Positions 1 to 20,114 of a DNA stretch of 29,408 nucleotides are shown here, piece by piece. Origin of the DNA: a virus; the IMG/VR virus record IMGVR_UViG_3300034198_008969, positions 1-29,408 of that record. One strand, written 5' to 3'. The position numbers and the translations under genes are program-made. The notes under the pieces are model-generated. The model was given only the letters and a program-made list of their open reading frames with translations. It was not told the DNA's origin and made no database searches. Every line of letters starts with the position of its first letter. The first letter of the stretch is position 1.

Positions 1-627
1 GGTTCAACAACATTACCTGGTAATCCAAATATTGTTAGATTTACCACAGATGGAACAGCAAGTAACAGAGATTACTTGGCTGACTTAACAGGTACAACTT
101 TTATTACAAATGATGGAGCAACAGTATTCCAAGTGATTACAAAACCAGCAACAGCAACAATGACAGCATCGTTTAAGATGTATTCAGGTGGAACAAACGG
201 AATATTTACAGGAGCATTCCCTAAGTTCCAACTTAATGCTCAACTAACACAAAATGTTATAACCACACAAATTAATAATGCCACTGGTACAACAAGTAGT
301 ATGGCTACAAGTAATATTAGTGGTTATTCAAAAAATAGCAATTACTTAACGACTTATGTAGTTCCAGCAACAAATGGAGCGTTTATGAAACAATATGTTA
401 ATTCGTTCTATTCGGCATCAACAACTCCTTATGTATTAACCACAGGATTGACAGCAAATAAAGTTATGTTGAATGTGGCAGGTGTAAGTACTCTTGGAGC
501 TATTACAGCAGCTGCATCATCTAATGAGGTTGCTGAAATCATTTACTATAACAGAGAATTAACTCAAAGTGAGATTTATATCGTTCAACACTATTTGGAA
601 AACAAATGGTCATACGATACTTGGTAA
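1..627 (+). CDS. Tail-fibre-like protein, C-terminal part (5' end outside window)
   Basis: The frame is open from base 1 to the TAA at 625-627, so this is the last 208 residues of a longer protein; no start is visible and an internal TTG at 76 is not a convincing start. The sequence is rich in Thr, Ser, Asn and Gly with alternating hydrophobic residues, as in beta-sandwich lectin-like (LamG/concanavalin-type) fibre domains. Its last 35 residues (EVAEIIYYNRELTQSE, then a YLxxKWxYxxW ending) closely match the end of the fibre protein encoded at 17160-20114, which shares AEIxxYxxxLxQxE and KWxYxxW. It probably forms a host-binding or trimerising fibre tip. The end of the transcript is followed by a stem-loop at 678-731. 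Family assignment is by pattern only. Confidence 0.7.
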   Translation, partial: GSTTLPGNPNIVRFTTDGTASNRDYLADLTGTTFITNDGATVFQVITKPATATMTASFKMYSGGTNGIFTGAFPKFQLNAQLTQNVITTQINNATGTTSSMATSNISGYSKNSNYLTTYVVPATNGAFMKQYVNSFYSASTTPYVLTTGLTANKVMLNVAGVSTLGAITAAASSNEVAEIIYYNRELTQSEIYIVQHYLENKWSYDTW

Positions 628-677
628 AAAAATATATTTATTATTTAGTAAATTACCAAACTTCATATATTTATTAT

Positions 678-731
678 CAGGTGAGGGTTGTGTTTATCTC
701 TAAAATGACTCCCATTTTTCCCCCTCACCTG
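678..731 (+). other. Stem-loop with perfect 10-bp stem
   Basis: CAGGTGAGGG at 678-687 pairs perfectly with CCCTCACCTG at 722-731, enclosing a 34-nt loop. There is no U-run directly after the stem, so it is not a classical intrinsic terminator; it could stabilise the 3' end of the upstream fibre transcript. Alternatively it is the 5' end of a transcript, because a TATATTTATTA motif at 666-676 would place a start at about 678. Confidence 0.6.
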
Positions 732-778
732 AATATCTTATTATATTTATTCGCAGAATCTTTTTTTTTTTGTAAAGA

Positions 779-802
779 AACCTGACTTTGTCGGGTTTTT
801 TT
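779..802 (+). terminator. Rho-independent terminator
   Basis: AACCTGAC (779-786) pairs with GTCGGGTT (790-797), with one T-G wobble and a TTT loop, followed by a run of seven T (796-802). This is a clear intrinsic terminator. It ends anything transcribed through 628-778 and insulates the sigma70-like promoter that starts at 813. Confidence 0.85.
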
Positions 803-812
803 ACGCTCATGC

Positions 813-840
813 TTGACTTTTATAATATACCACCTATATT
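813..840 (+). promoter_or_regulatory. Sigma70-like promoter
   Basis: TTGACT (813-818), a 16-nt spacer and TATATT (835-840) form a good -35/-10 pair directly after the terminator at 779-802 and upstream of the gene at 864. The predicted start is near 847, leaving a short leader. The element is very similar to the candidates at 1726-1754 and 2878-2905. The -10 continues as TATATTTA, which also fits the Bacteroidota -7 consensus TAnnTTTG except for the final base. Confidence 0.6.
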
Positions 841-863
841 TATATTATAAAAAAGATAAAACT

Positions 864-1016
864 ATGGGACAAATTAAAAGATTATTAGACGAGTTATTAG
901 ATGAACAGTATTACACATTCTGTGATGATACAGATTTAGATTACCAAACAATTAAAGAAAGACAATTGGAGGCTGAGTATTCAGCTTACGAAGAAATGTT
1001 ATCAGATACTAAATAA
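864..1016 (+). CDS. Small hypothetical protein (50 aa)
   Basis: I do not recognise this protein. It is acidic and mostly helical in pattern, with a Leu/Asp/Glu-rich start (IKRLLDELLDEQ) and many Tyr and Glu residues towards the end. I chose the ATG at 864 over an in-frame ATG at 813, because the region 813-840 looks like a promoter and the extra 17 residues would be an odd Tyr-rich stretch. It is the first gene after a strong terminator and promoter and is followed 18 nt later by another small gene, so the two probably form an early operon. Small acidic proteins in this position of phage genomes are often host-takeover factors, but nothing in the sequence proves that. Confidence 0.65.
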   Translation: MGQIKRLLDELLDEQYYTFCDDTDLDYQTIKERQLEAEYSAYEEMLSDTK

Positions 1017-1034
1017 TTTATAAAAAACAAAAAG

Positions 1035-1253
1035 ATGAGAACTAAAGAAGAAACAATCATTTATCAAAATCAATCACACCTTGTTCAAAAACACTTTCAA
1101 GATTGTGGGTTTTGTCCAACATTATTAGAAATAGCATTAGCTACAGATGTCATGGTAGATTTTGCTACCAAAGGTCCAACCAAAGAAGTATTGATTAGAT
1201 TTGAAAAGATGCAGGCGCATATTGATACTGCCAAATCAAAATTAAAAAAATAA
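1035..1253 (+). CDS. Small hypothetical protein (72 aa)
   Basis: Unrecognised soluble protein starting at ATG 1035 with MRTKEETIIYQNQSHLVQ and ending in a Lys-rich tail. Two cysteines (DCGFC) sit near residue 25, too few for a complete zinc site in a monomer. The second half looks helical. It follows the gene at 864 by 18 nt, probably on the same transcript, and a terminator (1277-1308) lies just behind it, so the two genes form a short unit. No transmembrane segment or signal peptide is apparent. Confidence 0.65.
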   Translation: MRTKEETIIYQNQSHLVQKHFQDCGFCPTLLEIALATDVMVDFATKGPTKEVLIRFEKMQAHIDTAKSKLKK

Positions 1254-1276
1254 TCTTTAATAAATAAATAGTTTAG

Positions 1277-1308
1277 AAACCCCTTATCTTTTAGATTTGG
1301 GGTTTTTT
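1277..1308 (+). terminator. Intrinsic terminator after the first small operon
   Basis: AAACCCC (1277-1283) pairs with GGGGTTT (1299-1305); inside it ATCT (1286-1289) pairs with AGAT (1293-1296) around a TTT loop, separated by a TT/TT internal loop. Six T follow (1303-1308). It ends the + strand operon 864-1253 and sits directly beside the stop of the - strand gene at 1310. On the - strand the hairpin lacks a good U-run. Confidence 0.8.
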
Positions 1309-1309
1309 G

Positions 1310-1705
1310 TTAGTCATCCAATAACTTACCTCTGTACTTATATTCTTCATTGTATGTTCCATCAGAATAGAATGCTGGCATCTCACTCTTTCTTTTCTTT
1401 TGATAAGTCATTGGAACTTTGGTATTTTGATTGTGGCGGTCTAAAAATTGTTGATGAAGGTCTTTGGTCATATCGTATCCGATAACCTCTAACAATCCAT
1501 AGGCGGTGTCATAATCTCTCTTTAATCTATCCTTCACAGTTTGTTCTGTAACCTTCTTCAACATTCTATCTACTGGTATTTTAATTCTTGCATTCACACA
1601 AGTTCTACATCTTCTATTGAGACCATCAGGATTATCTCTTGTAGTCCAATATTCTTTCAAAGGTTGTTCAATTAAACAAGCTGCACATATTTTTGTTTTT
1701 TCCAT
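1310..1705 (-). CDS. Zinc-ribbon protein, possibly HNH-nuclease-related (131 aa)
   Basis: This is the only gene I support on the - strand. The N-terminus carries two CxxC pairs, C7-x2-C10 and C33-x2-C36, with the spacing pattern of the short zinc-ribbon (CxxC, ~20 residues with KEYW and DGL, CRTC) found at the N-terminus of many phage HNH endonucleases and small DNA-binding proteins. No HNH core follows; the rest is basic and helical. A cryptic recombination or regulatory role is possible. I chose ATG 1705 because TATATT lies exactly 7 nt upstream, as at several other genes here; a start at 1732 would add nine hydrophobic residues. It is divergent from the gene at 1874. Its opposite orientation suggests a morons-like insertion or a regulator. 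Confidence 0.7.
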   Translation of the reverse strand: MEKTKICAACLIEQPLKEYWTTRDNPDGLNRRCRTCVNARIKIPVDRMLKKVTEQTVKDRLKRDYDTAYGLLEVIGYDMTKDLHQQFLDRHNQNTKVPMTYQKKRKSEMPAFYSDGTYNEEYKYRGKLLDD

Positions 1706-1710
1706 AAAAA

Positions 1711-1718
1711 TAAATATA
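1711..1718 (-). promoter_or_regulatory. TATATTTA element 7 nt before a start codon (- strand)
   Basis: Read on the - strand this is TATATTTA followed by TTTTT and the ATG at 1705. The spacing TATATT-N7-ATG equals that before the genes at 7249 and 28161. If it works as a -10/-7 element, transcription would begin at or next to the ATG and the mRNA would be leaderless. No convincing -35 sequence is visible at 16-18 nt upstream. Confidence 0.4.
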
Positions 1719-1725
1719 AGAGGAC

Positions 1726-1754
1726 TTGACAATAAATGAAATAGTCCCTATATT
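1726..1754 (+). promoter_or_regulatory. Sigma70-like promoter
   Basis: TTGACA (1726-1731), a 17-nt spacer and TATATT (1749-1754) give a near-ideal sigma70 promoter reading toward the gene at 1874. The predicted start is near 1761, leaving a leader of about 110 nt that contains further dyads. The -10 lies inside one arm of a 10-bp inverted repeat (1746-1755 with 1844-1853). Confidence 0.6.
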
Positions 1755-1858
1755 TATTTTGTAAGTCCCTCATCACAATATAGGACATAAAGAAATTATT
1801 GGAAACCTTATAAAGTAAATTGTGAAGTGATGAGCACAAATTGAAATATAGGGTTTCC
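1746..1858. repeat. Interleaved inverted repeats in the divergent intergenic region
   Basis: Three perfect dyads lie in this stretch: CCCTATATTT (1746-1755) with AAATATAGGG (1844-1853); CTCATCAC (1769-1776) with GTGATGAG (1827-1834); GGAAACC (1801-1807) with GGTTTCC (1852-1858). The second and third are interleaved, so as RNA they would form a pseudoknot or exclude one another. The third is followed by GTTTTT just before the ATG at 1874, terminator-like but with a long loop. The outer dyad places two TATATT boxes facing each other. Confidence 0.55.
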
Positions 1859-1873
1859 GTTTTTATAAACAAA

Positions 1874-2359
1874 ATGGAAAAGCAAAGAATGCTATTATTA
1901 CCAAAATCATTTATTGAATCTTATACACAAGATTTAGATAATGAGGACAGATTAGAAATAATGTCTGTAATCTTTAATTGGTTCTTAGGTGTTAAATCTA
2001 AACCAATTCAAAATAAAACTGTAAAGGTTTTATTCAATAATCTATTACCAATCCTTGAAGGTCATAAATCAAGTTACGCTAATGGAGCTAAAGGTGGAGC
2101 ACCTAAAGGAAATTCTAATGCCAAAAAAACAACTAAAAAAACAACTGAAACAACCCCCCTTGTTTTAGAAAACAACCCACAAACAACCCCCCTTGTTTTA
2201 CAAAACAAGCTTAAGGAGAAAGAGAAAGAGAAAGAGAAGGATAAAGAGAAAGAAAAGGATAAAGATAGAGATAAAGAAAGTTTGTTTAGTTTAGATATGT
2301 TTTCAAAAGAAGCTCAAGAAGCTGCTGATTTAGAATTATTTAGATTATTCAACAAATAA
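1874..2359 (+). CDS. DUF6291-like phage protein, possible replication factor (161 aa)
   Basis: Residues 1 to about 75 contain a helical segment with the pattern EDRLEIMSVIFNWFLGV, then LFNNLLPILEG and a short Gly-rich NGAKGGAPKGN stretch. This arrangement is typical of DUF6291-type domains in phage replication-module proteins, where a small N-terminal helical domain is followed by a low-complexity linker and a C-terminal tail. The linker carries a duplicated TTPLVL motif and a run of alternating Lys/Glu/Asp (about residues 117-137). The DNA under that run is a purine repeat (gagaaa units, about 2216-2276). I chose ATG 1874; an upstream TTG at 1841 would start inside the palindromic leader. 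The exact function is unknown. Confidence 0.65.
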   Translation: MEKQRMLLLPKSFIESYTQDLDNEDRLEIMSVIFNWFLGVKSKPIQNKTVKVLFNNLLPILEGHKSSYANGAKGGAPKGNSNAKKTTKKTTETTPLVLENNPQTTPLVLQNKLKEKEKEKEKDKEKEKDKDRDKESLFSLDMFSKEAQEAADLELFRLFNK

Positions 2360-2374
2360 ATTATAATTTATAAT

Positions 2375-2578
2375 ATGAAAGACCTTAAAAATATACCAGA
2401 AAGATTCCATATTTTATTCACAGATATAACTTGGAATAAAGGTAATGATAGTGAATTAAATTCTCTTCAACGAACTGATATGAATAGTTTGTACCTTGAA
2501 TATAATTCTTGGTCTATAAAAGAATCCTTAAAGAAGCCAGTTCAAGAATCAGCACCTATTGGTTTTATTAGGGATTAG
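2375..2578 (+). CDS. Small hypothetical protein (67 aa)
   Basis: Unrecognised. The ATG at 2375 follows the preceding stop by 15 nt, so it is probably co-transcribed with the DUF6291-like gene. The protein has mixed charge, with aromatic residues around ITWNKG and YLEYNSW, and shows no membrane segment. The lack of larger overlapping frames and the tight packing on both sides (23 nt to the next start) support it being real. Confidence 0.6.
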   Translation: MKDLKNIPERFHILFTDITWNKGNDSELNSLQRTDMNSLYLEYNSWSIKESLKKPVQESAPIGFIRD

Positions 2579-2600
2579 AGACACGAAAAACATTCAAGCT

Positions 2601-2882
2601 ATGGAAGAACTAAGGCGACTACTAAATGAACCAATAAACGACAAGTATGCTATACCAGTCAAAGAGTATTGGTCTCTACCTGAATCAGATAAGAATGATA
2701 TAACAAATGGGGTTGTGGATAATATGTTTATTACTCTTCAACAAGATAAGAAATTATTACACCAGTATATTTTTATGTTAGATTCTCAAATGGAGAACGC
2801 ATTGGAATTAGAATTATTTGAACACGCAGATATAGTTCAACGAATAAAAAATAAATTGATAGAAACTTACGCAACTATTTAA
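2601..2882 (+). CDS. Hypothetical helical protein (93 aa)
   Basis: Unrecognised, predicted to be largely alpha-helical and acidic (MEELRRLLNEPINDKY at the start; LDSQMENALELELFEHAD later). I chose the ATG at 2601 over an upstream in-frame TTG at 2559, because the latter would overlap the preceding gene. It ends just before a promoter-like sequence that drives the next gene, so it likely closes the operon that starts at 1874. No catalytic motif is visible. Confidence 0.6.
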   Translation: MEELRRLLNEPINDKYAIPVKEYWSLPESDKNDITNGVVDNMFITLQQDKKLLHQYIFMLDSQMENALELELFEHADIVQRIKNKLIETYATI

Positions 2883-2905
2883 CTTTTCAACATAGGTGGT
2901 ATATT
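2878..2905 (+). promoter_or_regulatory. Promoter candidate upstream of the winged-helix gene
   Basis: TTTAAC (2878-2883), a 16-nt spacer and TATATT (2900-2905, extended to TATATTTATTA) resemble the promoter at 813-840, with the same spacer length and similar spacer bases. The -35 is weaker than at the other two sites and overlaps the stop of the preceding gene. The predicted start near 2912 leaves about 15 nt before ATG 2927. Confidence 0.45.
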
Positions 2906-2926
2906 TATTAAATAGATAACACACTT

Positions 2927-3184
2927 ATGAAAAATATTTTAGCAAGTCATCAGGACAAAAGAATTTACGACTATATCATCAAGGATATAGAGAATAGCAA
3001 CAAGAACTATTCAACTCTAACAAACAACACCATAGCCCACGCGCTGAACTTATCGGCATTCTCAGTGAGAGATAAAGTAATTAGATTAGCCAAGAGAGGT
3101 TATCTTACAACATTAGTTTATCATTGGGATGATAATAATGTATGGTTCGCAAGAAAAATCTTAAAAGGGAATAGAGTTGAATAA
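2927..3184 (+). CDS. Winged-helix DNA-binding protein (85 aa)
   Basis: The protein is about the size of a single winged helix-turn-helix domain. Residues 31-58 (LTNNTIAHALNLSAFSVRDK onwards) read as a helix-turn-helix in which a small-residue helix (TIAHALNLS) is followed by a recognition helix (FSVRDKVIRLAKRG). Residues 60-78 (YLTTLVYHWDDNNVWFARK) form a beta-hairpin wing. Such proteins act as phage transcription regulators or in replication initiation. It has its own promoter candidate and is followed 19 nt later by the sigma-like gene, so the two may form a regulatory pair controlling later transcription. Confidence 0.65.
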   Translation: MKNILASHQDKRIYDYIIKDIENSNKNYSTLTNNTIAHALNLSAFSVRDKVIRLAKRGYLTTLVYHWDDNNVWFARKILKGNRVE

Positions 3185-3203
3185 ATGTTAAATCACCAAA
3201 ACA

Positions 3204-3713
3204 TTGTTAGACATTTGGATTACCGAAAACTTCAAGGAGTTAAAACAAATCTGTAAGAAGGTTGCAAGGAATAAATATAATGAGGATTTATTTCAAGTTT
3301 GTTTAGAACAATTCTTAAAAAATAAAACAATACATACAATCCCCGAGAAGAGTTTATTATACTTCTTTGTAGGGGTTGTAAGGAATAATGTTAATTCAAC
3401 GACCAGTCCATATTATTATCAATATGGTAAAACTAAGTTTAGTGACTGGAATGATAACGAAATACCTGATGAGGAATACCAAGAATCACCAGTAGATTTT
3501 GAATGGGTTGAACAACAGATAAGAAAGGATAAACTAACACAGAATTGGTATTACAGTCGTCTCTTTGAATTATACATACTTGAGGACTGTAATCTAACCA
3601 AACTATCCAAACGAACACACATACCCCTAAACTCTGTCTCAAGAGATATTAAGATATACAGAGAGAGATTAAAAGAATTAAGACAAAAATTAATAGAAAA
3701 TGGGAACTATTAA
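3204..3713 (+). CDS. Sigma-factor-like protein (169 aa)
   Basis: The N-terminal half (residues 1-70) has the helical pattern of sigma region 2: FKELKQICKKVARN, an acidic DLFQVCLEQFLKN helix, then LLYFFVGVVRNN. The C-terminal part (about 129-156) is a helix-turn-helix like region 4 (CNLTKLSKRTHIPLNSVSRD), followed by a basic helix (IYRERLKELRQKL). This two-region layout and length fit the small sigma-70-like proteins seen in many Bacteroidota phages. It probably directs host RNA polymerase to phage promoters. The start is TTG at 3204; the frame has a stop at 3189 and no ATG, and a nearby ATG at 3185 is in another frame that stops quickly. It overlaps the HNH gene by 14 nt. Confidence 0.65.
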   Translation: MLDIWITENFKELKQICKKVARNKYNEDLFQVCLEQFLKNKTIHTIPEKSLLYFFVGVVRNNVNSTTSPYYYQYGKTKFSDWNDNEIPDEEYQESPVDFEWVEQQIRKDKLTQNWYYSRLFELYILEDCNLTKLSKRTHIPLNSVSRDIKIYRERLKELRQKLIENGNY

Positions 3714-4128
3714 CATAGAAGGTAAAGATAGAAAGATAACCACTCGTAAAGATGGTTATCAAGTAATTACTTTACAAGGTAAAACCAAATACTTACATAG
3801 ACATTTGGCTGAACAACATCTTCCAAATCCAAACAATTTGTCCTGTGTAAATCACATTGATGGTAATCCTTCAAATAATTCAATTGATAACTTGGAATGG
3901 GTTTCATATTTGGGTAATGCTATTCACGCAAGACAAACAGGATTGTGGGGCAAGAATATTTTAAGTAAAAGAAAATTTACAATTGAACAAGCTGAAGAAA
4001 TTAGAAATAAATATATTCCAAGAAAATACTCAATCTATAAATTAGCAAAAGAATATAATGTTGATTCAGCAACAATTTGGGCAATCGTGAATAATAAATC
4101 ATATACAAAAGAATACTTAAACAAATAA
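3700..4128 (+). CDS. Free-standing HNH homing endonuclease (142 aa)
   Basis: The N-terminal part (res 17-67) has the HNH_3/NUMOD-type layout: a beta-strand entry (DGYQVITLQ), the motif LHRHLAEQHL, and the core VNHIDGNPSNNSIDNLEW at 50-67 with H52, D54, N60 and N64. Residues about 95-133 form a helix-turn-helix (AEEIRNKYIPRKYSIYKLAK, then SATIWAIVNN), as in the DNA-binding tail of homing endonucleases. It would make a site-specific nick or double-strand break and spread by gene conversion. It starts at ATG 3700 inside the last codons of the sigma-like gene, as is common for free-standing homing genes that insert between phage genes. It may be linked to the ORF-less group I intron at 25817. Confidence 0.88.
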   Translation: MGTINIEGKDRKITTRKDGYQVITLQGKTKYLHRHLAEQHLPNPNNLSCVNHIDGNPSNNSIDNLEWVSYLGNAIHARQTGLWGKNILSKRKFTIEQAEEIRNKYIPRKYSIYKLAKEYNVDSATIWAIVNNKSYTKEYLNK

Positions 4129-4132
4129 TACT

Positions 4133-4450
4133 TTGGGCTGCTCGTGCAAACAAAACAATCAAACTCAACAGAAACAACAACCTGTAATGGTTCAAGAGAA
4201 TAATGTAATTAACATTATAGATGTACCTGAACCAACATACTCAAGAGAAAATATAATCCGTATCAAGGATTATTTATCAGCAATGAATAAAACTCACGAT
4301 GAGAAACAATTTGTTAGTGATTTATTACTAAATGTATTTGGTGATATCATACCAGATTATTGTGACCAATCTTGTTTTAGTCATATTAGAGCACGAGTAA
4401 ATTATATGGAATCCAAAGTGTCTGACTATGAGAACTTTATAAAGAAATAA
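4133..4450 (+). CDS. Hypothetical protein with N-terminal Cys motif (105 aa)
   Basis: Unrecognised. The protein begins GCSCKQNNQTQQKQQP, a short CxC motif and Gln-rich segment of a type often seen at the start of small phage proteins, followed by a helical domain with a second pair of cysteines (DYCDQSC). The start is TTG at 4133, four bases after the preceding stop; the first in-frame ATG is at 4187 and would remove the Cys motif. It precedes the terminase small subunit by 8 nt and probably belongs to the packaging operon. Confidence 0.55.
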   Translation: MGCSCKQNNQTQQKQQPVMVQENNVINIIDVPEPTYSRENIIRIKDYLSAMNKTHDEKQFVSDLLLNVFGDIIPDYCDQSCFSHIRARVNYMESKVSDYENFIKK

Positions 4451-4458
4451 ATAAAATT

Positions 4459-4824
4459 ATGGCAAAGAAATATTATACCCCAAAAGGTTTTAATCCAAAA
4501 GTATTACAGAACCTCAAACCAGCAGTTAAAGGGGAGGTTAGAAATAAGAATGGAAGACCAAAGAAACTACCCAAGTTAGACGAACTACTTGCAGAAGTGT
4601 TAGGTAATATGACAGAGGAAGGTAAGACAGAAGCACAGAAGGTATTGGAAGCATTACTGAGGAAAGCAAATCAAGGGGATGTGAAAGCAGCCTCACTATT
4701 ATTAGATAGAGGATATGGTAAGGTAAAAGAACATATTGATATCACAACAAATGAGGAGTCATTGAACGATAATAAAATTCAAATAGAGATAATCACACAA
4801 AAGAAAGATGAGTCAGAGAAGTGA
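4459..4824 (+). CDS. terS: Terminase small subunit candidate (121 aa)
   Basis: The protein has a basic N-terminus with an NGRPKKLPKLDELL motif (from about residue 30), then helices EAQKVLEALLRKANQGDVKA and a conserved-looking ASLLLDRGYGKVKEHIDI segment (about 78-96). This resembles DUF5681-type and small-terminase-like proteins, where a GRP motif precedes a helical region ending in LLDRxxGKxxE. In the packaging motor, the small subunit recognises the DNA and stimulates the large subunit. Position supports this: it is the first gene of the block that leads to the large subunit at 6072. It overlaps the next gene by 17 nt. The role is inferred from pattern and context. Confidence 0.65.
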   Translation: MAKKYYTPKGFNPKVLQNLKPAVKGEVRNKNGRPKKLPKLDELLAEVLGNMTEEGKTEAQKVLEALLRKANQGDVKAASLLLDRGYGKVKEHIDITTNEESLNDNKIQIEIITQKKDESEK

Positions 4825-5248
4825 AACAAAGTACCAAGAGTTTAGAATGAACGAATACCCCAAGATTCAATTCAATGGGGGAACAATGGATAAAACAACT
4901 TATAGAGGTTGTTTCCTTGAGGTTAGAGGTCAGTTCAAATCAAAAACACCCAATCACCTTAAGACAATGAGAACTGTTATCCACGAGTTAAAACTATCCA
5001 TTGAAAAGAATATGGATAAGGACTTATTCAAAGATAGATTTATAACGCACGAAGATATATCTGTATCATACAAAGATACTGGTAGTTCATTTACCAAATT
5101 AGAATTTACCCTGTATCCAAAGAGACAAACCGATAAGGTTGAACTACAACATAAACTCAACTCAATATGTGATAAGATATACACAGATATATTTGAAGAT
5201 AATGAACTTATGGAGTTTGAAAAAAGACAAATCAAAAACAGAGCTTAA
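4808..5248 (+). CDS. Hypothetical protein in the packaging block (146 aa)
   Basis: Unrecognised alpha/beta protein. The middle has strands separated by charged helices (RGCFLEVRGQFKS, then LKLSIEKNM), and the C-terminal part is helical (LNSICDKIYTDIFEDNELME). The ATG at 4808 lies inside the end of the small terminase gene, and the stop shares its last base with the next start (5248), so translation is probably coupled. No catalytic or membrane motif is visible. It could be a packaging or neck accessory, which is based only on location. Confidence 0.65.
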   Translation: MSQRSETKYQEFRMNEYPKIQFNGGTMDKTTYRGCFLEVRGQFKSKTPNHLKTMRTVIHELKLSIEKNMDKDLFKDRFITHEDISVSYKDTGSSFTKLEFTLYPKRQTDKVELQHKLNSICDKIYTDIFEDNELMEFEKRQIKNRA

Positions 5249-5928
5249 TGGGGTTTCTAAACTTAAACATACCAACGATTACTTGTTTTATTAGGAATGA
5301 ATTTTTATTTAATCATACAGAGGGGCACGGTGAATACACAGCTTGCGATGTTCATTCGGTGGCATCTATTGAAAAAAGAACCCCATTGTTTGAAGCGTTC
5401 TTAGAGAACGGAGTTAATTGGACAAGAAGACCAATACACGCATTTGTATGGAGGACAGATGCAGAACAACTACCACTAACAGAACATATCTATTGGGATT
5501 GTTTCTCGTCATACATTGATGTAAAAGTTAGGGAACGAATGAGTGGATTGAGAGCAGACCTAATATCAATCACAGGAGTAAAAAGACAGGGAACATATCA
5601 ATTCACTTTGGACTGGTCACATCAAGATAGAAATATGATTGACACCAATTTCTCAGAGACACCTGAACATAAGTGTGGTCACCTATTCAAGATGGATAAT
5701 GGAAACTATTTTATCTACCCCAACAATAGAATTATATGGATGGATAAGGCTTGGACATATAACAGAATAGATAAAAACCCTGGTTATAAAATAGATATGA
5801 ATGTTTATAATGTTGAGAGTGTTGGAGGATACTCAACAGATTATTCATATATGACAGAATTTACAAAAGATACAATACAATATGGGAAAGAAAGCAACAG
5901 AACACAGGAAGAAAGTAGCCAAGCGTAA
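5248..5928 (+). CDS. Conserved phage protein of unknown function (226 aa)
   Basis: The N-terminal sequence pattern IPTITCFIRNEFLFN, followed by EGHGEYTACDVHSV and PIHAFVWRTDAEQLPL, is one I recognise from hypothetical proteins of marine and other tailed phages; no function is known to me. The protein is globular and aromatic-rich, with later elements EHKCGHLFKMDNGNYFIYPN and NRIIWMD. The ATG at 5248 overlaps the preceding stop by one base. The C-terminal 15 residues overlap the next gene (5882) by 47 nt. Position between the terminase genes suggests a late or packaging-associated role, which is inference. Confidence 0.7.
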   Translation: MGFLNLNIPTITCFIRNEFLFNHTEGHGEYTACDVHSVASIEKRTPLFEAFLENGVNWTRRPIHAFVWRTDAEQLPLTEHIYWDCFSSYIDVKVRERMSGLRADLISITGVKRQGTYQFTLDWSHQDRNMIDTNFSETPEHKCGHLFKMDNGNYFIYPNNRIIWMDKAWTYNRIDKNPGYKIDMNVYNVESVGGYSTDYSYMTEFTKDTIQYGKESNRTQEESSQA

Positions 5929-6082
5929 TGAACGATTGGGATTACTTAAAAAAGAAAAGATGAAACAGGCAGAGTTGTTTCGTGATGAACTAATGAAGAT
6001 TATGGGTAATGAAGAAAACTTGGAATCAGAAACAGCCATTAACTCTATGAGAGATGCCATCAAACATTTGAATGGGAATTAA
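5882..6082 (+). CDS. Small basic coiled-coil-like protein (66 aa)
   Basis: The first half is strongly basic and helical (KKATEHRKKVAKRNERL, then LKKEKMKQAE), and the second half is acidic (KIMGNEENLESET), ending in a short helix. This fits a small DNA- or protein-binding factor. The gene overlaps both neighbours: 47 nt at its start with the 5248 gene and 11 nt at its end with the large terminase, so it is probably translated by coupling. A role as an extra small-terminase-like helper is possible but unproven. Confidence 0.6.
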   Translation: MGKKATEHRKKVAKRNERLGLLKKEKMKQAELFRDELMKIMGNEENLESETAINSMRDAIKHLNGN

Positions 6083-7248: not shown

Positions 7249-8003
7249 ATGACGACACAGTTCATAGAATACAAAGGGAAGAAATATCCCATTAAAGAAC
7301 CAACAATTAAGATGTGGAGTGAAGTAATGAAACTCCAAGGCATTATTGATGAACAGGATATGTTTGTCAAAGTAATTGAATTGACTACTGGCTTAACTCA
7401 AGAAGAAATACTTTCAGCAGATGTCAAGGAGATACGAGAAGTTGGTAAACTGGTATTCAGTTTTTTAAATCAACAAGACAAAAAAGTAGCCAATGAATTT
7501 ACCCACAACGGTAAAGAATATGAATTTTTAAATATAGAAGATATTACATTTGGACAATTTGTAGATATTGATACATTCTTGACAAAACAAGAAAATTATA
7601 GAATACAAAATCTAAATGAATTAGCCGCCTACTTATATACTGAGAAGGGAACAAAGTATGGGGAAACAAAAATCAAACAAAGAATAAAGGAGTTTGAAAC
7701 TTTACCTGTAAAGTATCTTGAAGGCTCTGTTTTTTTTTTGTTGAATTTAGCAAAGGCATCAGAAGGGATTACCACAATTTATTCCCAGAGCAAGTTCCTA
7801 TGGATGACGATGAAGATAAAAATAATTTTGCATCTCATTGGGGCTGGTATTCAGCAATCAGCACACTATGTAACGAAAAGGTTTGGTTATTTGACAATGT
7901 TTCTGGCTTATCCCTTTATCAGTGTCTCAATCATCTTTCTTACCTTACGGACTTTAATAGTGAAAAAGAAAAACAAATAAAAAAACAACAAGCTCTTAAA
8001 TGA
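7249..8003 (+). CDS. Probable tail assembly chaperone, full product by -1 frameshift (251 aa)
   Basis: The 0 frame runs from ATG 7249, which I prefer to a TTG at 7207. Its first ~165 residues form a normal-looking protein (FIEYKGKKYPIKEPTIKMW; FTHNGKEYEFLNIED; TFGQFVDIDTF) of the kind found as tail-chaperone-like proteins in Bacteroidota phages. At T10 (7730-7739) the 0 frame continues to 7980 with an unlikely, hydrophobic sequence. The -1 frame instead continues with a phage-like segment (FPEQVPMDDDEDKN; HWGWYSAISTLC; LYQCLNHLSYL) to TGA 8001-8003. That frame opens only at 7722, so a shift near T10 gives one 251-residue protein. Its stop overlaps the next start as ATGA (8000-8003), which supports the -1 end. 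A homopolymer length error in the assembly is the main alternative. Confidence 0.65.
7730..7739 (+). promoter_or_regulatory. T10 slippery tract (frameshift or transcriptional slippage site)
   Basis: Ten T lie in the 0 frame as GTT TTT TTT TTG, giving a T TTT TTT heptamer (7731-7737) that fits the X XXY YYZ rule for -1 slippage. A run this long also allows RNA polymerase slippage. The -1 frame is closed upstream by TGA at 7719-7721, so the frame change must happen between 7722 and the divergence of the two frames. Confidence 0.6.
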
Positions 8004-10291
8004 CGGGTCAAACAATCAACTTCAAGACAATAGCCGATGACTATTCAAAACTGGCTAACCTACACAAACAACTTAAATCGTTTGGGTTAGGTAACTCTAA
8101 TCAGTTATCATATTGGACGCAACAAAGAGACCAAGAAGATAATACTCATTATCAGTCCCCTTATTACCCGTTATTATATGTTGTTCCATCCACAATCACA
8201 AATGACCTACAAGACAAAGTATGGGAGTTTAATACGATTGTAGCCGACTTACTTGAAAGGGACTTATCCAATCAAGTAGACATCACATCAGATACCCTAC
8301 AAATATTACAAGATATAATAGCACAATTTAGGTTAGCTGTCAATGAAAGATTTGGGGCTTACTATGACAAGTATTGGGTTGATGACTCTGTTATCTGTAC
8401 TCCGTTTCTTGAAAAACAAGATGACCTATTGAATGGTTGGAATGGTGTTATTAGAATTAAAACAATGACCCCATTGGATAGATGTGCTGCAGCATACTTC
8501 ACATTCACTGGTACTCCAATCCAACATCTTGAAGGTATCAATATGAAAACCTTTCACGATGACTTCAGATTACTTGCTGACCATCACAAACAATTAAACT
8601 CATTTGGGTTTGGTTCAATGGAGGATTTTACCTATTGGAATGAGTCAAGAGACAAAGAAGAGAATACTCACTATCAAGCCCCTATCTATCCAAATCTATA
8701 TGTTGTTCCTGGTGATGTAGACCAAAACTTTAATTTCATGGAGTATAAGTTTACCATCATAGTATCAGATATTATTGAGAGGGACTTATCAAATCAAACT
8801 GACATATTGTCAGACACCAACCAGATATTAGATGATATCATTAGCCAGTTTAGATTATCAGTAACTGATTCATTAGGTAATTTTAATAATGAATATTACT
8901 TGGATAATCCAATTGTGTGTACTCCATTTTTAGAACAATATGATGACTTATTAGGGGGATGGACAGCAGAACTTACAATACAAGTAATGACACCATTGAA
9001 CAGATGTGATGCTGCATTCTTTCCATTTACAAGTCCAACTCCGACACAGACACCATCACCTACCCCAACGGGTGGAGTTCCATCTCCAACTCCTACTACT
9101 ACAGAGACACCAACTCCAACTATTACGCCAACCAACACAGAAACACCAACTGTTACACCAACAAATACTGAGACAAGTACTCCTACACAAACACCGACTA
9201 ATACTGAAACGCCAACTCCTACTCCTACAACTACAACAACATTAACTGCCACACCAACAAATACGATGACTCCTACAAACACCGAGACATCAACACCTAC
9301 TCCAAGTGTTACTAATACTCAAACTCCTACAACTACAACGACATTAACAGCTACACCGACTAATACTGAAACGCCAACTCCTACACAAACTCCTACTAAT
9401 ACTGAGACAAGTACTCCTACTCCAACTACTACAACAACATTAACCGCAACTCCAACTAATACTCAAACCCCTACAAATACTGAAACACCAACTCAAACCC
9501 CAACTAATACTCCAACAGCAACAACAGCGTTAGATACTAATGCAAGTGCTTACTTAAGTGCGGTTGTAAATGCTGGTGGAACAGGTATAACATCAACAGT
9601 ATCAGCAGCAACAAATACAATGTTTGTTAGTTTGAAAAACGCTAACATCTATACCAAGTTAGATGCTCTATATCCATTCTTAGGTGGTATTGCTGCATCT
9701 GCTAAATGGAATGCTGTAAACCCTGTTGATACAAACGCAGCTTATAGATTAATATTCGGTGGTGGTGGAACATTCTCACAAGCGAAAGGTTATATTGGTA
9801 ATGGTGTTAATAATACAGCAAATACATTCTGGTTTGAAAGTGGAACAACCACAGGTAATACAACTATTGGTTATTTTGTATCTCAAAGTGGTACTACAGG
9901 ATTTGATTTGGGAGCACAATATACAAGTGGATGGCTAACATTACAGGCATCAAATGGAACAAATACAAGAGGTTCAATTCAAACTGGAGCATTAAACACA
10001 ATAACAGCAACAACAAATGCTCAAGCAATAAACTTCTTCGGATTAACAAGAACTAATAATACTCAAGTATCATTTGTAAGAGCTGGTGGAGGAGTTCAAA
10101 CCATAACTCAAAATACAACCATAGGAACATCAAATGTTCAAATGGGAATTGGACACGCACAAGGATTTGGTGGGTCATCAAATAGAGCATGGGGAACAAC
10201 AATAATTGGTAAAGGTATGACCACAACTGAACTTGGAAACTTGAGAGATATCATAACCACATTCAATACGACATTAGGTAGAAACTTATAA
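8000..10291 (+). CDS. Tail/fibre fusion: duplicated N-terminal domain, Thr/Pro linker, lectin-like C-terminus (763 aa)
   Basis: Residues about 8-170 and 183-345 are two clear copies of one domain: both contain HKQLxSFGxG, YVVP, ERDLSNQ, DIIxQFRL, CTPFLExxDDLL, GW and MTPLxRC. I do not know its function; it resembles a conserved structural domain of Bacteroidota phages and sits next to a connector gene (10495), so a neck, tail-completion or fibre-anchor role is possible. Residues about 345-510 are a Thr/Pro/Asn/Glu linker. The C-terminal 250 residues look like a phage fibre lectin-like domain: an opening of type LDTNASAYLSAVV, then KGYIGNGVNN, and an ending FNTTLGRNL that I recognise from many tail fibre proteins. 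It starts by ATGA overlap with the chaperone. Confidence 0.72.
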   Translation: MTGQTINFKTIADDYSKLANLHKQLKSFGLGNSNQLSYWTQQRDQEDNTHYQSPYYPLLYVVPSTITNDLQDKVWEFNTIVADLLERDLSNQVDITSDTLQILQDIIAQFRLAVNERFGAYYDKYWVDDSVICTPFLEKQDDLLNGWNGVIRIKTMTPLDRCAAAYFTFTGTPIQHLEGINMKTFHDDFRLLADHHKQLNSFGFGSMEDFTYWNESRDKEENTHYQAPIYPNLYVVPGDVDQNFNFMEYKFTIIVSDIIERDLSNQTDILSDTNQILDDIISQFRLSVTDSLGNFNNEYYLDNPIVCTPFLEQYDDLLGGWTAELTIQVMTPLNRCDAAFFPFTSPTPTQTPSPTPTGGVPSPTPTTTETPTPTITPTNTETPTVTPTNTETSTPTQTPTNTETPTPTPTTTTTLTATPTNTMTPTNTETSTPTPSVTNTQTPTTTTTLTATPTNTETPTPTQTPTNTETSTPTPTTTTTLTATPTNTQTPTNTETPTQTPTNTPTATTALDTNASAYLSAVVNAGGTGITSTVSAATNTMFVSLKNANIYTKLDALYPFLGGIAASAKWNAVNPVDTNAAYRLIFGGGGTFSQAKGYIGNGVNNTANTFWFESGTTTGNTTIGYFVSQSGTTGFDLGAQYTSGWLTLQASNGTNTRGSIQTGALNTITATTNAQAINFFGLTRTNNTQVSFVRAGGGVQTITQNTTIGTSNVQMGIGHAQGFGGSSNRAWGTTIIGKGMTTTELGNLRDIITTFNTTLGRNL
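9031..9527 (+). repeat. Low-complexity Thr/Pro linker-coding repeats
   Basis: The stretch encodes repeats of TPTNTxTPT and three copies of TTTTTLTATPTNT within the 8000 gene. Thr codons ACT, ACA, ACC and ACG alternate between copies, so the protein pattern is kept while DNA copies have drifted. The same LTATPT block recurs many times in the 17160 gene. The linker is uncharged apart from Glu and should be extended and flexible. Confidence 0.85.
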
Positions 10292-10292
10292 T

Positions 10293-10493
10293 ATGGAAGT
10301 AGGACTTTTAACAATAGAACAAAAAGATAGTTTAATAGGACAATTATGGGAAGATGATTGTTATTTTAATCCAGTTCAAGATAGTAACGGTGATTGGATT
10401 ATTTCAACAACAGAGATGTATGGAAATATAAATCCTGATTTTAGTTGGGTATCAACTTTACCTTTGATTGAATGGGTGCCACCAATATACTAA
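10293..10493 (+). CDS. Small conserved-looking phage protein (66 aa)
   Basis: Starts one base after the stop of the fibre fusion and ends one base before the next start, so it is tightly packed in the tail operon. The sequence YFNPVQDSNGDWIISTTEM and the ending WVSTLPLIEWVPPIY resemble a small protein that often accompanies fibre and tail genes in phages of this group. It is acidic and aromatic. A fibre accessory or chaperone role is possible, based on position. Confidence 0.65.
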   Translation: MEVGLLTIEQKDSLIGQLWEDDCYFNPVQDSNGDWIISTTEMYGNINPDFSWVSTLPLIEWVPPIY

Positions 10494-10494
10494 T

Positions 10495-11079
10495 ATGTAC
10501 GAGATAGCAGATGACGCACTTGAGGCTTTAGGAAAAATGTTTGTTGAAATGATGAAGAAAAAGATTCAACAAAAGATATACCCCTATGGACATCCAGCAA
10601 GAGGTAATAGTAATAAGGTTGCGTCAGGTAAACTATTGAATAGTTTAAGTTCCAAATTGGTGCCAGGTAAAAAAGGACAACCAGGTTATTTGGAAGTAAC
10701 TTATGCTGATTACTTTGAGTATGTCAATTTAGGTAGAAGACCTGGTGTAAAAAAAGTACCTATAAAATCATTATTAGAATGGATTAGTATTAGGGGTATA
10801 AAGCCAAGACAAATAAATAACCCCATCCGTGCTCAACGAGGAAGGTTTGCTAAAAGAGGTAAGAACTGGCAATTGGGTTTGGCATTTGCAATTCAAAAAA
10901 ATATACTTAAATATGGGATACGACCAACAAATCTATACGATAAGTCATTAGAGAGTTTGGATGAAATATTTACCAATCCACCACCTGAATTAGCTCAAGC
11001 ATATAATGAACTATACGGAGCAATAGAACAGGATGTATACAATTTAATTGAAGCAGACATAAGAGAAATTTTTATTTAA
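10495..11079 (+). CDS. Head-tail connector / tail completion protein, HK97-gp10-like (194 aa)
   Basis: The protein has a helical N-terminus, then SGKLLNSLSSKLVPG, a strand-rich core YLEVTYADYFEYVNLGRR, a conserved-looking RPGVKKVPIKSLLEWI and a C-terminal helix FAIQKNILKYGIRPTNLYDK. That combination (GxLxNSL, DYFxYVxxGRxPG, WI, IxxKGIxxTNxxD) is characteristic of HK97-gp10-like neck or tail completion proteins. These proteins close the tail end or join tail to head. The ATG at 10495 is preferred to an upstream TTG at 10468 that would overlap the previous gene. Four bases separate it from the next gene. Confidence 0.7.
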   Translation: MYEIADDALEALGKMFVEMMKKKIQQKIYPYGHPARGNSNKVASGKLLNSLSSKLVPGKKGQPGYLEVTYADYFEYVNLGRRPGVKKVPIKSLLEWISIRGIKPRQINNPIRAQRGRFAKRGKNWQLGLAFAIQKNILKYGIRPTNLYDKSLESLDEIFTNPPPELAQAYNELYGAIEQDVYNLIEADIREIFI

Positions 11080-17159: not shown

Positions 17160-20114
17160 ATGTTAGTAACCATAACTTTAACTTCAGCATCAATAAACAC
17201 TGGTCCGTTTAATTTATACACAAATTCGGATGGTTATACTACGCCTATTAATGTTGGAGTATCAAGATTAGATTTATTAGCAGGATATACTACCTCAACA
17301 GCACCTGATAATGCAACAATTATTAGAGTACAATCTTCAGGAGCTTGTACTGGTTATGTTGATATGTCAATATCAAATTTACCAAGCCCAACACCAACTA
17401 ATACACAAACAAGTACTGTTACCCCAACCAATACAAGAACGCCAACTCAAACTCCAACAATTTCAACAACTCCAAGTCAAACAGCAACAATTTCAACAAC
17501 TCCAACACTTACATTAACACCAGGTTATGTTGCTGATTGTTTATACTTTAGTGCTTCACCTGAATCATCACCATCATTCCAAGCATATACTGGTTATTTT
17601 TATAGAATTGATAATGTTGCAAGATATTTTAATGCTATAAATGACCAAACTATTTGTTCATATAGAGACGGTAAAGGTTATGCGATGTATAGTGGAGCAA
17701 CAGGATGGCTCGCCGCTTTTACTATTGGGGCAATAGGTGATTTGAAATTTGGTTTATTCCCACCAACTGTTACTAATTTCAGTGTATGTAATTATGACCA
17801 AGGCTATCATCCAGTTAGACAAGATTTAACAAATAATATAACTTTGAATGATGGATTATATGTTCCATCACAAGGTATTCAAACAGCTATTTTTGATAAC
17901 ACATATAATATTATTTGGTGTGGTTTCCCTGGAACTACTCCAACAGCAACGCCTGCTAATACATCAACTCCTACACAAACACCAACTAATACAACAACTA
18001 TAACAAACACACCAACAACAACTTTAACATCTACTCCTACTAATACTACAACTAAAACTCCAACACAGACAACAACACAGACAACAACGCCTACTAAGAC
18101 AACAACACAAACTCCAACGACTACAACAACATTAACGGCAACTCCAACACAAACGACAACAAATACTGAAACTCCAACTCCTTCAGTAACAACTACTAAT
18201 ACTCAAACTCCAACTAAGACAACTACTCAAACACCGACTACTACAACAACATTAACCGCAACTCCAACTAATACACCAAGTATTACTCCAACTAATACTA
18301 CTACACAAACGCCTACAACTACAACTACTCTGACATCAACTCCTACTCAAACACCAACTAATACAATAACTCCAACAAATACAGGAACAGCTGCAGTTAC
18401 TCCTACAACAACAACTACTCAAACTCCTACAACTACAACCACATTAACTGCAACTCCAACTAATACCCCAAGTGTTACTCCAACTAACACTACTACACAA
18501 ACGCCTTCAACAACAACTACTTTAACTGCAACACCGACACAAACTCCTACTAATACAACTACGCCTACTAATACTCCAACTACTACTACAACATTAACTG
18601 CCACACCAACCCAAACTCCAACTAACACTACAACTCAGACCCCAACAACAACTACAACATTAACAGCTACTCCAACTCAAACGCCTACTAATACAACAAC
18701 ATCTACTCAGACCCCAACAACAACTACAACATTAACAGCTACTCCAACTCAAACTCCAACTAATACAACAACACAAACACAAACTCCAACTAATACAACA
18801 ACACAAACACAAACAAGAACACCACAATCAACACCAACAGCAACACCATCTTGTTATACATTACAATTAACAAATCAAAGGTCAGGACAATCAAGTTATG
18901 TCTATACTCTTTGTGATGGAACTACAAGTGATACTCAATTTATGGCAATTGGACAAGTTGATGTAATTTGTTCAAGATTTACATCTGTTACTGTACTTAT
19001 TGGTCCAATTTCTACATCAGTATTAGGAACTTGTCCACTACCAAGTGCGACTCCAACTAACACTGCTACACAAACAAGAACACCAAGTAATACTCCAACA
19101 AATACTAATACACCGACTCAAACAACGACTCAAACACCAACGACTACAACAACATTAACGGCAACTAATACTCCAACTCCGACCAATACTATTACTCCTA
19201 CAAATACAGCAAGTAATACTCCAACTCCGAGTATAACTGCAAGTAATACACAAACACCAAGTAATACTAATACTCCGTCTATAACAACAACACAGACACC
19301 GACTATTACTAATACTCCAACAACTACTATTACTCCAACTATAACTAAAACTCCAACCCCAACAGGTGGATTTAGTCCAAGTTCAATATCTAACTTACAA
19401 GCATGGTATGATGCAGCAGATGCTAATACTATCACATTGAGAAGTGGAACACAGAATGTTACAAGATGGGATGATAAGTCATCTAACAACTTCTATGTAT
19501 ATCAGTCAGGTACAACTCTACAACCAACTTGGTCAGCGTCAACACCTGGTTCAGTTTGGTCTGGTAAGACATTGGTATACTTTGACGGAACAGATTACTT
19601 GGCAAGAACAACAGGAACATCATTCAGTGATTCAGGATTTACTTACTTCTTTGTAGCTTATGCTAATAATGGTAATACTGACTCATTATTATTCAATATG
19701 ACTGACCAAGCACCACCAGTAAATGTTGGTAAATACAGAGCATATATGGGACCAGCAAATCCACCTAATACTAATCAATTAACAATGGGTGATGATAATA
19801 ATGCTATAGCTTGGGTATGGGCTTCACCATTTACATTAGGAGGTAAGAATGGATATATGTTAGGAGCAAGTAGTGGAACTACTGCAGGAGCATTCTCAGG
19901 TAATGTTAATAATGTAATTTATAATACATCATCATCAGCTGGTTCTGTTCCTGATACGGTTAGTGCAATATCAATAGGAGCAAACAACAATGGAGGTGCT
20001 AAGATGACAGGATATATTGCTGAGATATTAGTATATGGAAAAAAATTAAGTCAAACTGAATACAATAATGTCATCAGTTACTTACAAACTAAATGGAATT
20101 ATACAAGTTGGTAG
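17160..20114 (+). CDS. Very long modular tail fibre with Thr/Pro stalks (984 aa)
   Basis: Domain order: residues 1-73, a beta module ending in SSGACTGYVDMS; 74-120, short Thr/Pro linker; 121-256, a Cys-containing module (DCLYFSASPESSPSFQAYTG); 257-563, a 300-residue Thr/Pro/Asn/Gln linker; 564-625, a short Cys module (CYTLQLTNQRSGQSSYVY); 626-735, another linker; 736-984, a LamG-type lectin-like domain beginning SISNLQAWYDAADA and ending KWNYTSW. The C-terminal domain is homologous to the end of the protein at 1-627. The linkers carry almost no charge. The protein is probably an extended adhesin of the virion that reaches host glycans. The start is ATG 17160. The long linkers make repeat-length variation likely. 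Confidence 0.72.
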   Translation: MLVTITLTSASINTGPFNLYTNSDGYTTPINVGVSRLDLLAGYTTSTAPDNATIIRVQSSGACTGYVDMSISNLPSPTPTNTQTSTVTPTNTRTPTQTPTISTTPSQTATISTTPTLTLTPGYVADCLYFSASPESSPSFQAYTGYFYRIDNVARYFNAINDQTICSYRDGKGYAMYSGATGWLAAFTIGAIGDLKFGLFPPTVTNFSVCNYDQGYHPVRQDLTNNITLNDGLYVPSQGIQTAIFDNTYNIIWCGFPGTTPTATPANTSTPTQTPTNTTTITNTPTTTLTSTPTNTTTKTPTQTTTQTTTPTKTTTQTPTTTTTLTATPTQTTTNTETPTPSVTTTNTQTPTKTTTQTPTTTTTLTATPTNTPSITPTNTTTQTPTTTTTLTSTPTQTPTNTITPTNTGTAAVTPTTTTTQTPTTTTTLTATPTNTPSVTPTNTTTQTPSTTTTLTATPTQTPTNTTTPTNTPTTTTTLTATPTQTPTNTTTQTPTTTTTLTATPTQTPTNTTTSTQTPTTTTTLTATPTQTPTNTTTQTQTPTNTTTQTQTRTPQSTPTATPSCYTLQLTNQRSGQSSYVYTLCDGTTSDTQFMAIGQVDVICSRFTSVTVLIGPISTSVLGTCPLPSATPTNTATQTRTPSNTPTNTNTPTQTTTQTPTTTTTLTATNTPTPTNTITPTNTASNTPTPSITASNTQTPSNTNTPSITTTQTPTITNTPTTTITPTITKTPTPTGGFSPSSISNLQAWYDAADANTITLRSGTQNVTRWDDKSSNNFYVYQSGTTLQPTWSASTPGSVWSGKTLVYFDGTDYLARTTGTSFSDSGFTYFFVAYANNGNTDSLLFNMTDQAPPVNVGKYRAYMGPANPPNTNQLTMGDDNNAIAWVWASPFTLGGKNGYMLGASSGTTAGAFSGNVNNVIYNTSSSAGSVPDTVSAISIGANNNGGAKMTGYIAEILVYGKKLSQTEYNNVISYLQTKWNYTSW
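17931..18850 (+). repeat. Long Thr/Pro/Asn/Gln repeat stalk
   Basis: About 300 residues of linker within the 17160 fibre gene. A unit of the form TPTTTTTLTATPTQTPTNTTT recurs eight or more times with substitutions (TSTPT, TNTPSV, PSTTTTL). Nearly all Thr codons vary between copies. Expected to be extended and flexible; slippage or recombination could change its length. Confidence 0.85.
19037..19365 (+). repeat. Second Thr/Pro/Asn repeat stalk
   Basis: Encodes about 110 residues of TPTNT- and TPSNT-type repeats between the short Cys module and the lectin-like domain of the 17160 fibre. It holds one TTTTTLTAT block shared with the longer stalk. Confidence 0.8.

Follow-up and report, generated by a model that had tools for sequence, protein, structure and literature searches.

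Which RNA may be made from the non-coding DNA between a zinc-ribbon gene and a DUF6291-like gene in an uncultivated virus, and what might it do there? The region lies in a virus record of 29,408 bases, which is taken here over its whole length and referred to as the window. For the large terminase the nearest isolates are Bacteroides phages, at about 35-37% identity, and the virus has at least 80 close uncultivated relatives. A first-pass annotation had read the region as face-to-face promoters with overlapping transcripts, that is, as a genetic switch between the two genes, and every string it named lies where it had been placed. On the minus strand, TTGTTT (1872-1867) and TATATT (1850-1845) are separated by 16 nt. 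The dyad arms CCCTATATTT (1746-1755) and AAATATAGGG (1844-1853) match at 10/10 positions, CTCATCAC (1769-1776) and GTGATGAG (1827-1834) are complementary at 8/8, and GGAAACC (1801-1807) and GGTTTCC (1852-1858) precede GTTTTT (1859-1864) and the ATG at 1874. Altogether, 1706-1874 contains two exact inverted repeats of at least 10 nt, a number reached in 2 of 300 shuffles.

The rightward promoter was rightly proposed. With TTGACA at 1726-1731, a spacer of 17 nt and TATATT at 1749-1754, it ranks first, at 11/12, among the 32 promoter-like sites of positions 1-6000 in a promoter scan, and in 10/10 copies of the region examined a TTG is found 18-20 nt upstream of the TATTTA (-7) box. Bacteroidota sigma-A promoters have the form TTG...TAnnTTTG, with the box at -12 to -5 (PMC9723704); applied to TATATTTA at 1749-1756, this box position predicts +1 at 1761. 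Both the promoter and the predicted transcript start are supported by conservation. A second clear promoter, TTGACT-16-TATATTTA, is present at 813-842, ahead of a 50-aa ORF (864-1016), and two terminator-like hairpins were noticed by eye upstream of it, at about 678-735 and 779-803.

From the predicted start onwards, the window carries a conserved structured element (Table 1), of which the annotated strings are fragments. GGAAACC and GGTTTCC form the foot of a longer pairing of two 24-nt arms (1801-1824/1835-1858), which enclose a 10-nt apical loop containing GTGATGAG, while CTCATCAC lies within the loop of a small hairpin, GTCC/GGAC (1765-1768/1783-1786); these features had been overlooked. 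The pseudoknot-like pairing that had been suspected does exist, as a kissing helix between the loops of the two hairpins, P1 and P2. The stems need not exclude one another: P2 stays intact while its apical loop pairs with loop 1, so that all of the predicted interleaved stems can form at once and are compatible, not alternatives. In one homolog (L087), P1 reads AUCC/GGAU. The AGUA/GAAA internal loop of P2 presumably resembles the loop-E/sarcin-ricin module.

Table 1. Features of the leader region and its neighbours in the window.
Feature	Position	Strand	Evidence or remark
Zinc-ribbon gene (C-x2-C ... C-x2-C), divergent neighbour	1310..1705	-	
Promoter of the leader RNA, TTGACA-17-TATATTTA	1726..1756	+	TTG before the box in 10/10 copies examined
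Conserved structured leader RNA (kissing-loop element), ~104 nt	1761..1864	+	9 distinct homologs; alignment A5, covariance model R1, pair counts
P1 hairpin, GUCC 1765-1768 / GGAC 1783-1786	1765..1786	+	4 bp; pair counts, folding
Loop 1, CUCAUCAC, 5' half of kissing helix	1769..1776	+	pairs with 1827-1834
Unpaired A-rich linker, consensus AAGAAAUUAUUG	1788..1800	+	nearly invariant in alignment A5, in part imposed by the search
P2 hairpin, 1801-1812/1847-1858 and 1818-1824/1835-1842	1801..1858	+	19 bp (12 + 7); 7/19 pairs with changes on both sides
AGUA internal-loop strand, opposite GAAA 1843-1846	1814..1817	+	invariant in 9/9 sequences, in part imposed by the search
P2 apical loop	1825-1834	+	
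Loop 2, GUGAUGAG, 3' half of kissing helix	1827..1834	+	covarying with loop 1
GUUUUU adjoining P2 at its 3' end, tail resembling an intrinsic terminator, 9 nt from the start codon	1859..1864	+	U-rich tail in 10/10 copies examined
Minus-strand promoter of the first-pass annotation	1845..1872	-	considered incidental to the sequence of the P2 3' strand; window only
DUF6291-like gene (161 aa) for a putative protein of the replication-initiation type	1874..2359	+	72% identical to the L087/L088 gene

The boundaries of the element are equally regular. In ten copies examined the leader is 105-113 nt long, P1 begins at +2 to +6, and a U-rich run follows P2 with the start codon close behind, so that transcript and fold coincide. 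The distance from the end of the element to the ATG is 6-10 nt, and P2 of the window ends 15 nt upstream of the ATG. Some copies have a short or interrupted U-run (GTTTTA in L239, TTTTATTTTA in L254).

Covariation among the copies shows the predicted fold. Of its 31 pairs, 4 belong to P1, 8 to the kissing helix and 12 + 7 to P2. Across nine aligned sequences, some of them close to each other, 98.2% of the 276 cells are paired, and 11 of the 31 pairs have two-sided changes, in 19 cells; each of these three values was reached in 0 of 500 shuffles, and slid structures had 34-49% of their cells paired. In the kissing helix all 72 cells are paired and three of the eight pairs have changed on both sides, one pair appearing as AU, UA and CG, changes that are to be counted as at least two separate events, not nine. 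Besides CUCAUCAC/GUGAUGAG, the partners read CUCUUCAC/GUGAAGAG in L238, L239 and L282, and CUUCUAAC/GUUAGAGG, with one G-U, in L254. Two of the pattern scans by which copies were collected left both loops unspecified, and the kissing pairing was therefore not imposed by the search. Other bases must be read with more reserve: AAGAAATTATTG, AGTA, TTGTG, CAC and TGAAA were fixed in some scans and the linker was within the search pattern for some copies, so that the conservation of these bases, including the linker and the AGUA/GAAA loop, is partly imposed. RNAalifold recovers P1 and P2 unaided, and the single sequences tested fold likewise (z about -1.7 to -3.8), with upper P2 formed less fully in L254. 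G-U occupies 26 cells and A-C only three, an excess that assigns the structure to the plus-strand RNA. Thus, the covariation that the first-pass annotation had proposed to look for is present, but for a plus-strand RNA.

The element was found in 13 records, namely the window and 12 uncultivated viral contigs, with one copy per record and nine distinct sequences (A5); the model R1 scores 112.8 bits in the window and 94-124 bits over the records. A DUF6291-like protein profile led to L087 and L088, where this leader also occurs and is preceded by the zinc-ribbon gene in parallel orientation, and four DNA pattern scans of viral contigs added L090, L103, L109, L110, L238, L239, L241, L246, L254 and L282. 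The element was not found in the phage-isolate and plasmid collections, where the weak phage matches are chance pieces of 19-26 nt, and R1 had no match in 395 Bacteroidota genomes, a sample scanned with strict filters. Matches to the loop pattern in genome contigs (at least 118 stretches across unrelated phyla) were taken as chance. The nearest DUF6291 relatives without the element, L038 and L041 (gene 73% identical), have a gap of about 90 nt to the next gene; each gene there has a single promoter box immediately ahead of it, and a leader is missing. The element is therefore dispensable in the group, since these relatives lack it behind the same kind of promoter.

These copies also bear on the opposing promoters. 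Temperate phages such as P2 and 186 have face-to-face promoter switches, and in the window the divergent genes around one control region resemble theirs. A switch of this kind, in which overlapping antisense transcripts would decide between the zinc-ribbon and the DUF6291-like gene, could also draw on the two hexamers that are present in the window. However, the first hexamer of the leftward promoter matches at only 3/6 positions, and the promoter is absent from the list of the promoter scan. A minus-strand TTN-17..21-TAnnTTN at this place occurs in the window only; the same stretch in the nine other copies examined reads CCCTTGTCTTTC, CCCTTGTATTTC, CCCCGTGTGTTTC and similar, and the 3' strand of P2 has changed there in step with its 5' strand. 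The 10-bp box-to-box dyad, though present in the window, is likewise not conserved; it reflects a chance resemblance, confined to the window, of the promoter to one of the P2 strands. The G-U pattern is wrong for a minus-strand RNA, and a TATATTTAT box at 1718-1710 (minus strand) lies directly before the zinc-ribbon ATG, with a similar box at that position in nearly all divergent relatives; it is the likelier promoter of the zinc-ribbon gene. This gene runs parallel to the leader in L087, L088, L090, L109, L110 and L282, and because it does so in five of the eight other rows of the alignment (L087, L090, L109, L110 and L282), a leftward promoter is not needed. Neither conserved opposing promoters with overlapping transcripts nor a conserved divergent arrangement was found among the copies examined, and no repressor gene was identified. 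A promoter switch is therefore exceedingly improbable; of the earlier proposal, the rightward promoter and the regulatory-looking leader, with its pseudoknot-like pairing and its U-run before ATG 1874, stand.

The zinc-ribbon gene has 28 matches among the terminase relatives. Its family shares a C-terminal motif, Y..MYeFL..iGYd...DIH.QF, varies in orientation between relatives, and shows weak matches to endonuclease VII/HNH families. At 1277-1309, an AAACCCC...GGGGTTTTTT hairpin between two converging genes is likely a two-way terminator.

On the other side, the gene directly 3' of the element is always of a putative replication type: DUF6291-like or, in L254, DnaD-like/replication initiation protein. 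The Pfam match to DUF6291 is above the cut-off for the genes of L090, L109 and L238 and below it for those of the window (15.3 vs 27.2 bits) and L087, two genes clearly related to each other; a longer-tailed DUF6291 protein (L002) matches replication-initiation PHROGs. Two contigs, L238 (locus 10397-10983) and L246 (locus 7690-8267, reverse), have an identical 102-nt element and similar flanks, with different DUF6291-type genes directly downstream. This pattern suggests gene exchange at the leader and counts against a gene-specific sensor.

From these comparisons we infer that the leader regulates the gene behind it, and we consider it somewhat better than an even chance (about 0.55) that it is a cis-acting, transcription-attenuating leader of the plus strand with a terminator braced by kissing loops. 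Transcription would start at about 1761, P1 would fold first and P2 next, and the P2 apical loop would pair with the P1 loop in the 8-bp kissing helix; the resulting single, compact structure would end in the U-run just ahead of the DUF6291-like ATG. P2 and the U-run would form an intrinsic terminator, in which case many transcripts would stop as an RNA of ~104 nt and the replication-type gene would be made only when the polymerase reads through. Read-through might occur by chance, or a protein, a metabolite or another factor might shift the outcome by acting on the linker, the internal loop or the kissing core. In shape, the element has what an attenuator requires, a stable hairpin and an immediate U-run between promoter and start codon. 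P2 was not flagged by a terminator scan, which allows only loops of 3-8 nt. Attenuators with intrinsic terminators and riboswitch-type 5' leaders likewise start at +1 and have a hairpin and a U-run upstream of the start codon in the gene they control. Here, however, the terminator-like hairpin is itself an integral part of the fold that is conserved, a loop-loop helix links it to the 5' hairpin, no pairing that could serve as an alternative antiterminator was found (the kissing helix being compatible with P2), and the element matches no known ligand class or Rfam family. No upstream ORF common to the copies was found, which argues against a leader-peptide attenuator.

The main rival is a stand-alone small RNA: promoter, compact RNA of ~104 nt and terminator would form a unit whose product has its target in trans, be it a protein of the host, the polymerase or another RNA, with the downstream gene merely expressed by read-through. 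With its start at about +1 and its end at a U-run, the element would be complete in itself; the identical element with similar flanks before two different genes in L238 and L246, and the unrelated non-coding stretches that occupy the same slot in other relatives (see below), would also suit such an RNA. Against this, a replication-type gene always follows the element after 6-10 nt, too short a gap for a further promoter, and a free small RNA gene would be expected elsewhere too, yet there is one copy per record. We regard this explanation as unlikely.

Control of translation, in which the opening of P2 or the kissing state would determine how readily ribosomes reach the start codon, appears improbable; plasmid leaders of the RepZ type and phage genes under autogenous repression work in this way. 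Bacteroidota do without Shine-Dalgarno sites, and initiation tends to be reduced by structure lying within about 20 nt of the start (PMC6847099); such control is conceivable because P2 ends close enough to the ATG for this sensitivity to matter, and the downstream genes are of the replication type. However, the U-rich run kept after P2 in every copy examined would be needless for it, no leader peptide is conserved, and the gene exchange between L238 and L246 also speaks against it. An RNA of a replication origin (primer or origin transcript) beside the initiator gene would account for the constant link with replication-type genes of two families, but the terminator-like end and the fixed start suit a leader equally well, and no origin-like repeat array was noticed in passing beside the element; this role is very unlikely.

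The attenuating leader favoured here has its nearest working analogies in two systems named in PMC10724649, the pseudoknot leader of repZ and the attenuator of pT181. Both precede replication initiators and use antisense RNA. Like the repZ leader, the element has a leader hairpin loop that would pair at a distance upstream of a replication gene, and this long-range pairing is supported by covariation in the kissing helix. It would differ from that leader in having a U-run behind it, no conserved antisense RNA promoter and no leader peptide, the copies sharing neither a minus-strand promoter nor an upstream ORF, and in belonging to a phage, not a plasmid. As in the countertranscript-driven attenuator of pT181 (cited in PMC10724649), the leader ahead of a replication initiator gene would contain a terminator hairpin; here, by contrast, no countertranscript promoter is conserved and the kissing pair lies within one RNA.

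None of the 4227 families of Rfam 15 matched the window or its relatives at the gathering score, and permissive Rfam scans of the element (window, L238 and L090) gave chance-level matches only. The best of these in the window, to RT-14/STnc260, scored 19.7 bits against gathering scores of 48.1/100, and a retron-like RT-14 RNA was rejected. A hammerhead ribozyme was considered for UGAUGAG and GAAA and rejected: the CUGAUGAG core, stem II, GAAA and stem III in a three-way junction were not found, UGAUGAG becomes UGAAGAG or UUAGAGG in homologs, the gap between UGAUGAG and GAAA is just 7-8 nt, and there is no Rfam match. No published description of the RNA was found in a literature search that covered few subscription papers.

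More tentatively, and with some doubt, the element may represent a class of regulatory RNA new to phages, with its 5' and terminator hairpins clamped together by kissing loops; such an RNA would form an exchangeable promoter-leader cassette gating replication genes of at least two families, as one of several structured RNAs in the same slot of this phage group. In Bacteroidota, where genes are controlled without Shine-Dalgarno sites, little is known of leader RNAs that gate the replication genes of phages. If the kissing loop controls termination, the element would be a small RNA gate unlike the usual terminator/antiterminator switch.

Different RNAs in the same slot of related phages would provide a natural comparison set. 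A different non-coding stretch of ~115 nt, GGGGGUAAACC ... GGGGGGUAAACUCUCUAACC, occupies the leader slot between the plus-strand promoter and the first plus-strand gene in L032:4360-4475, L080:7512-7620, L021:6511-6625 and L065:3911-4045; it is probably structured and had no Rfam match at gathering. The same holds, as regards Rfam at gathering, for a non-coding stretch of about 250 nt in L052:5620-5870 and L054:5950-6190, which share GUUUCCAAAUA..AGUUUUCACUGAAACU. A third kind, of ~300 nt and also non-coding, is found in L077:1600-1840 and in L079, L082 and L083.

Elsewhere in the window, 8000-10291 and 17160-20114 encode large proteins with long threonine/proline-rich repeat arrays, probably virion surface proteins, with GC skew down to -0.68. 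The gene at 3204-3713 has 43 matches among the relatives and weakly matches a family of phage sigma factors (phrog_1740, 4.9e-05).
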